Of a stretch of 33,184 bases of DNA, positions 8,861 to 10,828 are shown one piece after another; the first letter of the stretch is position 1, and every line of letters begins with the position of its first letter. The stretch lies in the NCBI GenBank assembly GCA_011390615.1, contig JAABSB010000021.1, positions 1 to 33,184 of the forward strand. The letters are read 5' to 3'. The position numbers and the translations under genes were made by a program. The DNA comes from Desulfotignum sp. Its GTDB lineage: Bacteria; Desulfobacterota; Desulfobacteria; Desulfobacterales; Desulfobacteraceae. Under the pieces are notes generated by a model. It ran no database searches and was not told the DNA's origin. It was given only the letters and a program-made list of their open reading frames with translations.

Positions 8861-9646
8861 TTAATAGTTTTCAAGGCGGTTTCTGGATACGTCTGCCTGA
8901 TCGATATCGGTATTGTAGGTGATACTTTCAATTTTCAAAAAGGTGCTGTGCTCTCTTTCATGGTCCTCCATGCTGATGATCAGCTCTGTCCAGATATCCT
9001 GGATTTTTTCAAGCTTCAGTACTTTATAGGTTTTGATGTGACTGCCTTTTTTGTCAAAATATTTTACCAGGACCGGCACCAGGGAATCTTTGGTGATCAG
9101 ACTTTGCGTCAGGCTGTACTGGGACTGGACACCCTTTTTGGGCCGGGTTTCCATGGCATGGCAGGCAATTCCCCCAATGGTTTGTGATCCGGTAATTCTG
9201 TACGTGTAATCGTCAACCGGGTGACGTTCCATGTCTTCATAGGTAAAATCACTGTTTACAAACCGGTGGGATTTCTGGGAAGTTACAATCCGCCGGGTTC
9301 TTCTCAAAGCAGGCAGATAGATGAACTGCTCGGTTTCCCAACCGGGTTTTTCAATGGTGAGGAAACCGGTTCCTTCAATATCAGCCGGAAACGTGAACCT
9401 GATAATCTGGCGCTCAAGTGTATCGTCCAGTATCCGTTTGCTGGTAAACTGCCGGACCCGTTTGTTGTCATTTTTGTCCACAAGCACCATCTGGGAGCTT
9501 GAAACAGAATTTTTTCCCCGGTCCCGGTGAAAAACATCCCGGGCCAGCTGTTTGCCTGTGACGGCATCTGTTCCGGCAGATACCGTCACAGGCAAGGGTA
9601 ACAGGCAGAACATGCAGGCCCAAAAAACAAGCAGAAAATATTTCAT
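8861..9646 (-). CDS. Periplasmic outer-membrane lipoprotein-sorting-like protein (LolA_like family)
   Basis: 261 residues with a clear signal peptide cleaved near VSA-GT (residue 24). The mature part starts with GKQLARDVFHRDRGKNSVSSSQMVLVDKNDNKRVRQF and contains EQFIYLPALRRTRRIVTSQKSHRFVNSDFTYEDM, the typical pattern of the LolA_like family annotated as outer-membrane lipoprotein-sorting proteins. These have a LolA-type half-barrel with a hydrophobic groove and usually accompany DUF1302 barrels and RND/MMPL exporters. It is distinct from true LolA. It is the first gene of the minus-strand envelope operon; the DUF1302 barrel follows after 52 bp. A probable promoter lies about 90 bp upstream. 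It likely carries a lipid or hydrophobic cargo across the periplasm (inference). Confidence 0.8.
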   Translation of the reverse strand: MKYFLLVFWACMFCLLPLPVTVSAGTDAVTGKQLARDVFHRDRGKNSVSSSQMVLVDKNDNKRVRQFTSKRILDDTLERQIIRFTFPADIEGTGFLTIEKPGWETEQFIYLPALRRTRRIVTSQKSHRFVNSDFTYEDMERHPVDDYTYRITGSQTIGGIACHAMETRPKKGVQSQYSLTQSLITKDSLVPVLVKYFDKKGSHIKTYKVLKLEKIQDIWTELIISMEDHEREHSTFLKIESITYNTDIDQADVSRNRLENY

Positions 9647-9739
9647 GATCTTTCCCTTTTGTCATGTTGAAAATGGTTGCAACCTGTCTTTGGCTTCGTC
9701 AAATGCTTGACGCAGTCCATAAGTAAGGTGATGTATATA

Positions 9740-9768
9740 TTCATATGCAAGATACGGGTTTTTGTCAA
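9740..9768 (-). promoter_or_regulatory. Candidate sigma-70 promoter for the envelope operon
   Basis: Read on the minus strand, TTGACA (9768-9763) and TATGAA (9745-9740) are separated by 17 bp. The -35 is consensus and the -10 matches 4 of 6. It lies about 95 bp upstream of the LolA-like start at 9646. Confidence 0.5.
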
Positions 9769-9891
9769 TTTGAAATTCTGATTCTGCCAGGAACAGTATG
9801 CCGGTCAGATCGGTTTTTATGAAAGCCGTCAGGTTTCCTGCTTTGTTGTGCCCATCAGGGAAGGGCCGGTGGTAAAAAATCTGTACGTATT

Positions 9892-9964
9892 TTTTTGGTC
9901 ATTTGATCATTATCTTCTTGACAAATACCATCAGGGTGGTAAATTATGATCAAATGACCAAAAA
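9892..9964 (+). promoter_or_regulatory. Promoter framed by a perfect 19-bp inverted repeat (putative operator pair)
   Basis: ATGATCAAATGACCAAAAA at 9946-9964 is the exact reverse complement of 9892-9910. Each arm contains TGATCA-AA-TGACCA, itself a near-palindromic half-site pair. The 35-bp spacer holds TTGACA (9918-9923) and TAAATT (9940-9945) at 16-bp spacing, so one arm sits upstream of -35 and the other overlaps the expected transcription start and touches the Shine-Dalgarno. A repressor bound to both arms would block the promoter. Autoregulation by the DUF134 protein encoded next is the simplest guess. Confidence 0.7.
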
Positions 9965-9974
9965 GGAGATGCCC

Positions 9975-10343
9975 ATGCCGCGACCCAAAAGACCCAGATG
10001 TATTGGCGCCCCACCGGTTGTGACAGAATTTAGTCCCCGGGAAGGCCAGGAAAAAGGAGAGGTGGTGTTGTCCTTTGAAGAATTTGAGGCGGTTCGCCTC
10101 ATTGATTACGACGGTCTGGACCAGGGGCAGGCAGCCGGGATAATGAACGTTTCCCGGCAGACAGTGGGCAGGATTCTGAGGACCGGACGGTTCAAGCTGA
10201 CAAAAGCAATTGTGGAGTCATGCCGTCTGAAACTGTCCGGCGGATGCTATAAAATAGATGAAACCATTACTGGCCGGGGACGGCACCGCCGCCGCAGAGG
10301 CGGTGGCTGCCGCGGACCTGGCCACGGCGGGTACAACCCATAA
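9975..10343 (+). CDS. DUF134 family DNA-binding protein
   Basis: 122 residues from the ATG at 9975, chosen because AAAAGGAG lies 6 nt upstream and the family begins MPRPKRPRCIG; an earlier in-frame ATG at 9903 would start inside the upstream operator arm. Residues about 34-85 (LSFEEFEAVRLIDYDGLDQG, then AAGIMNVSRQTVGRILRTGR) are a sigma-70-region-4-like helix-turn-helix, typical of DUF134. After a Cys-containing stretch (ESCRLKLSGGCYKI) the tail is very basic and Gly-rich (GRGRHRRRRGGG). Family members are small regulators of unknown target, common in anaerobes and often linked to iron-sulfur or metal-related small proteins. The partner DUF5320 gene follows after 23 bp. Autoregulation through the flanking 19-bp repeat is inferred. 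Confidence 0.85.
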   Translation: MPRPKRPRCIGAPPVVTEFSPREGQEKGEVVLSFEEFEAVRLIDYDGLDQGQAAGIMNVSRQTVGRILRTGRFKLTKAIVESCRLKLSGGCYKIDETITGRGRHRRRRGGGCRGPGHGGYNP

Positions 10344-10366
10344 CATAAGACAAAAGGAGACTTATA

Positions 10367-10654
10367 ATGCCTGGATTTAACAGAAGAGGACCGGAAAATC
10401 AGGGACCCATGACAGGCCGTGGACGCGGTCTCTGCACAGGCGCTGCAGATACTGCCCAGGGATTTGGCACCGGGAATGCCCCGGGATTTGGCAGAGGACG
10501 GGGCAGAAGATGGTGTCAGGGGGGTTTTGGCCCCAGGGGGCCTGTGAGACAGTGGCAGACATCACCGGATGCCGGCAATGACCTGCAGGCCCGTGCAAAA
10601 TGGCTGGAAGCGGAATTAGCAGCTGTAAAGCAGCAGTTGAATGACCCTGCCTGA
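10367..10654 (+). CDS. DUF5320 family small protein
   Basis: 95 residues, with AAAAGGAGACTTATA before the ATG. The first half is rich in Gly, Arg and Pro with the family pattern MPGFNRRGPENQGPMTGRGRGLC, followed by FGRGRGRRWCQGG. The C-terminus (about 73-92, LQARAKWLEAELAAVKQQL) is a short amphipathic helix likely to form a coiled coil. DUF5320 proteins are typically found next to DUF134 regulators and dinitrogenase iron-molybdenum-cofactor-like proteins in anaerobes; their function is unknown. Two Cys (about 23 and 50) might bind metal. It is co-transcribed with the DUF134 gene. Confidence 0.82.
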   Translation: MPGFNRRGPENQGPMTGRGRGLCTGAADTAQGFGTGNAPGFGRGRGRRWCQGGFGPRGPVRQWQTSPDAGNDLQARAKWLEAELAAVKQQLNDPA

Positions 10655-10717: not shown

Positions 10718-10784
10718 CAGACATCACCGGGAAGTCTTTGCTGGAAATTACAAGGCAGCAAAGCTTCCCGGTGATTACTGTCTG
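10718..10784 (+). repeat. Long hairpin (about 25 bp stem) downstream of the DUF5320 gene
   Basis: ATCACCGGGAAG (10723-10734) pairs with CTTCCCGGTGAT (10764-10775). CTTTGCTG (10736-10743) pairs with CAGCAAAG (10756-10763) across a one-base bulge (T10735). An outer CAGAC/GTCTG pair closes the base beyond a 4-nt internal loop. The apical loop is 12 nt. No T-tract follows, so it is not a standard intrinsic terminator; an mRNA 3'-end stabiliser, a small RNA or a mobile-repeat remnant are options. Confidence 0.65.
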
Positions 10785-10796
10785 GAGAATGGCCGT

Positions 10797-10828
10797 GACA
10801 TTTGCAAAAAAAAATTTTTGCAAATGTC
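10797..10828. repeat. Perfect 14-bp palindrome with A/T core
   Basis: GACATTTGCAAAAA and TTTTTGCAAATGTC flank a 4-nt A loop. The A-tract faces the T-tract across the dyad centre, the reverse of an intrinsic terminator's layout, which favours a DNA operator or architectural site. It lies about 115 bp before epd. Confidence 0.65.

Follow-up and report, generated by a model that had tools for sequence, protein, structure and literature searches.

DeoR of Bacillus subtilis, one of the described regulators closest in fold to the protein considered here, carries a sugar-binding domain and uses an operator above its promoter together with a further site inside the promoter, and the operators of ArsR/SmtB regulators are 12-2-12 dyads. 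Helix-turn-helix (HTH) proteins commonly read bases with the first turns of their second helix. For DUF134 (UPF0251, PF02001), the accessible parts of the open literature yielded no description of an operator or a function, in agreement with a preliminary description of this DNA that had held such operators to be undescribed. In those sources DUF134 is mentioned in passing (among candidate quadruplex binders in one source and in a gene table in another), UPF0251 appears as an entry in a mutation table with nothing on function, and searches for COG1342, PF02001 and DUF5320 found nothing on function; the operator motif string was not found in the open literature either. Here we analyse a window, the whole stretch of 33,184 nucleotides from Desulfotignum sp., in which two inverted-repeat arms frame the promoter of a DUF134 gene, and we propose that these arms are very probably two operators of the DUF134 protein itself, through which it would repress its own promoter.

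The preliminary description had reported a perfect 19-bp inverted repeat around this promoter, with TGATCA-AA-TGACCA in each arm and a TTGACA/TAAATT promoter in between, and each of these elements was recovered. Direct reading of the window places the perfect arms at 9892-9910 (minus strand) and 9946-9964 (plus strand), and the pair 9892-9913/9943-9964, 95% complementary over 22 nt, is the longest inverted-repeat pair in the interval 9500-10500. Each arm is itself a dyad, a feature absent from the preliminary description: a 14-bp dyad of the form TGRTCA-WW-TGAYCA lies within each, TGGTCATTTGATCA at 9896-9909 in the upstream arm and TGATCAAATGACCA at 9947-9960 in the downstream arm, and TGATCAAATGACCA matches exactly at both places, on the minus and the plus strand respectively. 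A promoter scan recovered the -35 hexamer TTGACA at 9918-9923 and the -10 hexamer TAAATT at 9940-9945 (both plus strand), with a 16-bp spacer and a TG preceding the second hexamer; an alternative -10, AATTAT with an 18-bp spacer, received an equal score, and on inspection relatives show TATATT or TATAAT at the -10 position. Relative to the predicted start site (~9952) the upstream arm is centred at about -50, above the -35 hexamer, and the downstream arm, centred at about +2, adjoins the -10 hexamer and spans the start site. This is the placement first proposed, except that the downstream arm had also been placed over the Shine-Dalgarno sequence, which did not hold, the end of the arm merely touching AAGGAG at about 9963-9968 (plus strand) on inspection.

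At up to 2 mismatches TGATCAAATGACCA has 3 matches in the window, compared with a mean of 0.47 among shuffles, 2 of 100 of which reach 3. When the search was carried genome-wide, as the preliminary description had proposed, the exact 14-mer proved confined to the two arms of the window, these being its 2 copies in the whole 3.02-Mb source assembly (3,022,311 bases, 83% complete); the remaining 27 matches all carry 2 mismatches, and a reversed-pattern control gave 4 matches. Elsewhere in the window, a 19-nt inverted repeat (95%, 6-nt loop) lies at 9552-9595, near the start of a minus-strand LolA-like gene.

The gene following the promoter (9975-10343, plus strand; 122 aa) is, as had been stated, a helix-turn-helix DUF134 gene, matching PF02001 over residues 3-94 with 75.7 bits against a curated cut-off of 27, and it is the single PF02001 match in the source genome, an assembly that is 83% complete. 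Translation begins at the second ATG (9975, MPRPKRPR), where that of relatives begins too. The protein scored below the NCBIfam equivalog PRK04217 (NF003257; 60.3 bits against a curated cut-off of 115), as did two other DUF134 proteins, so that the shortfall concerns a narrow model and not DUF134 membership. Among sigma factor models, those of the Sigma70_r4 type alone matched, below their cut-offs, and the protein is not assigned to the RNA polymerase sigma factors. An AlphaFold model (mean pLDDT 78, HTH blocks above 90) has helices at residues 50-57 (10122-10145, plus strand), the first HTH helix, and at residues 61-80 (10155-10214, plus strand), the predicted recognition helix; residues 61, 62, 65 and 66, which occupy its first turns in the model, vary together with bases of the operators from one DUF134 clade to another. 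Among solved structures the closest matches to the model were sigma region 4 and DNA-bound DeoR, with E values no better than 0.08 and TM-scores of 0.6-0.7 against the small targets, and a search by sequence found no solved DUF134 structure (best E 0.51). The second gene of the proposed operon, at 10367-10654 (plus strand; 95 aa), encodes a DUF5320 protein (PF17253, 70.9 bits against a cut-off of 27). It is followed by two strong hairpins, ATCACCGGGAAG...CTTCCCGGTGAT at 10723-10775 and GACATTTGC...GCAAATGTC at 10797-10828, which, read by eye, may be the terminator of the operon, and for which Rfam matches were far under threshold. At L073 and L085 the DUF134 frame runs on into a Gly/Gln/Cys-rich tail resembling a separate downstream gene, as if fused.

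Of the 86 genomes from the GTDB family of the window, 66 have PF02001, and the upstream regions of 70 family DUF134 genes were read, the seven weakest PF02001 rows (three of them just over the cut-off) being left out. These genes comprise an A type (n=57) and a B type (n=13, KPEVSYFKPRG-like). The preliminary description had held that arms missing at orthologous promoters would speak against its reading; both arms, each with at most 2 mismatches, with pairs sought 45-60 apart and TTGAC required in between, were present at 45 of the 57 A-type promoters, a set in which some loci are near-identical relatives. One good arm was found at a further 11 (downstream only in 9, upstream only in L085 and L089) and none at L064, giving 56 of 57 A-type genes with at least one conserved putative operator in their own promoter. 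The downstream arm is retained more often, at 54 promoters compared with 47 for the upstream arm. Among the 45 two-arm promoters the arm centres lie 51 (3 promoters), 52 (11), 53 (15) or 54 bp (16) apart, 8 or 9 bp separate the arm from the -35 and 23-25 the -35 from the second arm, and inspection found the DNA between the arms to be variable except for the promoter hexamers. The A-type arms were absent from all 13 B-type genes of the family, one of which (L061) has a different dyad, TTATGGGTATATGCCCATAA.

Related dyads were also identified outside the family, DUF134 being present in many bacterial phyla, on plasmids and, according to a control search, in two archaea. We drew 90 further DUF134 loci from a phylum sample, leaving out lower-scoring rows and a few others, and 80 more from named genome contigs, these being the best 80 of 458, with titles that name Deltaproteobacteria, Spirochaetes, Planctomycetes, Nitrospira, Zixibacteria, Elusimicrobia, Acidobacteria and others. 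The promoters of these genes frequently contain a 20-bp dyad, most often TTATGRGCATATGCYYATAA. Using a score that sums pairing, TTAT/ATAA flanks and a G at position 5 and ignores positions 6-9, a dyad scoring at least 12 was found in 157 of 264 distinct DUF134 upstream regions, the out-of-sample loci included, compared with 4 of 1320 dinucleotide-shuffled versions of those regions, and one scoring at least 11 in 184 of 264 compared with 44 of 1320. When the control was instead random windows from these loci, in which coding sequence makes up a larger share, the corresponding counts were 157/228 versus 25/1169 at 11 or above and 139 versus 3 at 12 or above. At 80 of the 264 distinct genes no operator was called (score under 11), and some of the genes without a site probably sit inside operons. 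Across 297 genomes TTATGRGCATATGCYYATAA occurs exactly at 24 distinct places in 15 genomes, 17 of which lie directly before DUF134 (16 known genes and one contig-end DUF134, L376); the other places are five in G348, one before a FAD-oxidoreductase-like gene (L375) and one at a contig end (L377). Four of the five G348 sites were read (L365 and L379-L381) and are copies of one repeat bearing a perfect TTATGAGCATATGCTCATAA palindrome. At L375, in G270, a DUF134-type operator and TTGACA precede an apparent pyridine-nucleotide-disulfide oxidoreductase gene.

In the combined set of 195 operators scoring at least 10.5 (of 264 proteins), a second site with at most 4/14 mismatches accompanies 88, at exactly 53 bp in 33 cases and at 49-56 bp in 71; with shuffled palindromic cores a second site was found in 72 of 975, and in 9 it had the 49-56 bp distance. 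Of the 35 second sites outside the family, 26 fall at 49-56 bp, with arms of the TGAGC, TGCTCA and TGAACA types. A promoter score of at least 9.5, with spacers held to 16-18 bp by the search rule, was reached at 160 of the 195 operators and in 17 of 889 controls, which here are random windows and not shuffles. Relative to the predicted start, the dyads lie mainly at about -50, at about +2 or at -17 inside the spacer, with smaller groups at -11 and at 0 to +10; in the window, the putative operator at about +2 overlaps the core promoter or start site.

Such an arrangement most likely reflects a mechanism in which a DUF134 dimer would bind each 14-bp dyad through its sigma-region-4-like HTH, and in which occupation of the downstream site, at the edge of the -10 hexamer and over the start site, would block polymerase. 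The upstream site, lying just above -35 about five helical turns away and on nearly the same face, would probably add to repression through cooperative binding or bridging of the promoter. In this way expression of the DUF134-DUF5320 operon would stay close to a set point until a signal opened the promoter. It could also be argued that DUF134 activates, the site at about -50 recruiting polymerase and that at +2 limiting overshoot: some activators sit near -50, and a double site would permit both modes. However, the upstream arm is the one lost more often (9/57 A-type promoters, versus 2 for the downstream arm), and outside the family 58 of 110 scored loci have the dyad centred at -17 inside the spacer, a position that fits a repressor, so that activation appears unlikely. 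We infer repression instead from the position of the sites together with near-consensus promoters.

The autorepressor reading is further informed by where else the sites occur. DUF5320-like frames lie downstream of DUF134 in 40 of 55 A-type loci, and within the stretch examined in 3 of the 16 loci of another genus, g4. In the 13 g4 genomes where DUF5320 stands away from DUF134, a second double-arm promoter precedes DUF5320 in every case, at 39-240 bp, with all 13 genes above the Pfam cut-off; the 3 g4 genomes in which the two genes are adjacent lack this second pair. All the pairs that were read stand before DUF134 or DUF5320, with the sole exception of L113. L113 is the third such promoter of genome G026 and precedes a tiny Gly/Cys/Gln-rich frame that may be a third regulon member. 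Single g4 sites without a second arm were read at L105/L386, L106, L107, L112, L115, L117, L119 and L385; L107, L112 and L119 resemble terminator palindromes, and L105/L386, before a DtxR-like gene, is the only one with an adjacent TTGACA. In G020 (L386) this appears as a single upstream-type arm with TTGACA, the DtxR-like gene being named by eye.

In the wider family the pattern TGRTCAWWTGAYCA is present in 62 of 86 genomes, usually 1-5 times and up to 10 times in G024, its positions being read among the matches listed, and the reversed control is found 0 times in 80 genomes and 1-3 times in six. Within the genus (13 genomes) 24 of 31 exact sites, including every pair, are at DUF134. Five of the other seven (L136, L137, L140, L141 and L142) lie inside open frames of at least 227 codons, L138 is a copy of a DUF134 promoter at a contig end, and at L139 a lone arm precedes a gene that by eye is Hsp20-like; a wider genus regulon built on these extra single sites was accordingly rejected.

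Of the 20 genomes of the family in which PF02001 had no match, 8 also contain the pattern, and two of these (G016 and G018, fragmented assemblies in which no DUF134 was found) keep arms at the DUF5320 promoter, a single arm being visible at a contig end in G018. This would suit the possibility that a different regulator, for example of the ArsR/SmtB or FNR type, binds the dyads and controls DUF134 operons, as would the resemblance of TGAACATATGTTCA-like sites in some clades to ArsR/SmtB operators and the presence of an ArsR gene near one plasmid locus. In the other six genomes, however, the sites lie only inside long open frames (G031, G038, G041, G048 and G074) or in a tandem repeat (G075). 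The confinement of the pairs read, L113 excepted, to DUF134 and DUF5320 promoters, and the lack of arms at B-type genes of the same family, likewise argue against an unrelated regulator. In G055, which has a partial PF02001 match only, the site is within an open frame.

Also bearing on the identity of the regulator is the relationship between the recognition helix of DUF134 and the letters of its putative operator. In a discovery set, helices with SRH went with TGCTCA, those with S, H or C after the aromatic residue with TGAACA or TGAATA, those with N in place of R with TTGGCA, and the default helix with TGRGCA. These rules were fixed before 44 new loci (L315-L358) were read, of which 36 remained after removal of 1 without a frame and 7 repeats of known proteins. 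The SRH rule gave a GCTCA half in 6/6 and the S rule an A at position 7 in 4/4 (L340 with L for F). For the N rule, T at position 5 was seen in 6 of 8 top calls, three of the six under the score threshold, and the eight loci comprise one from Clostridia and seven related gammaproteobacterial plasmid loci; at two N-type loci, L353 and L356, the TNGCATATGCNA core is present and ranked third. The default rule (a GRGCA half for SR[QAP]T.GR) held in 8 of 15, or in 13 of 15 for GRGC, the last letter having been dropped after the fact, and three new loci have helices outside all rules.

In the combined set, a GCTCA half accompanies SRH in 9/9 compared with 0/186 others, A at position 7 accompanies S/H/C in 16/17 compared with 4/178, and T at position 5 accompanies N in 10/12 compared with 9/183, several exceptions to this last relation being known (e.g. 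L190 and L210). A fourth relation, of S[QK] with a non-C base at position 8 (8/9 versus 14/186), derives from the combined set, the new loci having given no cases. When helix columns were left out of the tree, independent pairs for the four relations were few, with 1, 3, 2 and 2 on supported branches and 3, 5, 4 and 2 when all branches were counted; on the former, operators shift in the expected way or stay the same, never the opposite, and no sign test was significant. As a separate candidate, K/R after GRIL was considered as a correlate of the T at position 7 in the window and rejected on the tree, with 0.3 pairs each way. The operator code thus appears well supported for the H, S and N types, as judged from these sequence comparisons, and the TGRTCA type of the window itself lies outside the explained set. 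That operator letters tend to follow DUF134 helix residues, including at loci read after the rules were set, counts further against control by another regulator, which we consider improbable.

Conserved sites, fixed geometry, recurrence at DUF5320 and association with the recognition helix are together the grounds for regarding the arms as putative DUF134 operators. The autorepression design first suggested for this locus gains support from the two-arm A-type promoters of the family, from the DUF5320 promoters that repeat the arrangement in all 13 g4 genomes, and from the helix-linked changes in the dyads. That the inverted repeat instead works as a hairpin in RNA or DNA, whether attenuator, terminator or cruciform, is highly implausible, for although the arms are able to pair and Rfam returns weak matches across 9881-9976, all far under gathering scores, the predicted start lies inside the downstream arm, leaving a transcript without the upstream arm, and promoters with a single arm exist.

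The signal to which a DUF134 repressor would respond may relate to metal clusters; this is a guess, suggested by fusion to, and the neighbourhood of, NifX-type FeMo-cofactor domains. The Nitro_FeMo-Co domain was fused to DUF134 in all four long proteins tested, and outside the family 88 of 202 loci have a NifX-like frame downstream, a total that counts some genes twice, from two collections. A NifB/NifX-family gene follows DUF134 in all seven annotated plasmid stretches that were read, 4 of which have a PaaI thioesterase and 3 a SLAC1 channel. Plasmid carriage is itself of note, a DUF134 gene being found on 189 of 72,556 plasmid records (L352-L358 among them), 69 from Klebsiella and 57 from Citrobacter.

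Taken at its broadest, our analysis leads us to lean, by a narrow balance, towards a view of DUF134 proteins as phylum-spanning, sigma-4-like autorepressors tied to NifX-type partners, with a code at helix positions 61, 62, 65 and 66 and with operators about 53 bp apart that change together with the protein, serving as a local switch for an Fe/Mo-cluster or redox function. With a putative operator, a target operon of the form DUF134-DUF5320 or DUF134-NifX and a proposed code from residue to base, a family without known function would become a testable regulator. Furthermore, with two operators, a kept spacing and letters that change with the protein, the family may offer a natural series of altered-specificity repressors for the study of HTH-operator evolution.

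In comparison with known systems, the NifX/NifB/orange-protein domains (PF02579; MrpORP, NF041136) are related to DUF134 by association, being fused to it or following it; they bind clusters and not DNA, and the operon of the window has DUF5320 in their place. Region 4 of ECF/sigma-70 factors (PDB 5fgm, 2h27) has an HTH similar to that of the DUF134 model (rmsd 0.6-1.1 over 44-47 columns, E 0.1-0.35), a likeness echoed in weak sequence matches of DUF134 to Sigma70_r4 below cut-offs; unlike in sigma factors, however, no other sigma domain matched, and the putative site of DUF134 is a dyad overlapping the promoter rather than a -35 half-site. DeoR of B. subtilis (PDB 7bhy) likewise has an HTH similar to the model (38% identity over 40 columns, E 0.11), and its operator above the promoter with a further site inside the promoter recalls the arrangement of the two arms here, its sugar-binding domain counting as a difference. 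Finally, ArsR/SmtB operators look similar to the TGAACATATGTTCA variant of the DUF134 sites, but ArsR/SmtB is another protein family, and the DUF134 sites go with the DUF134 helix.
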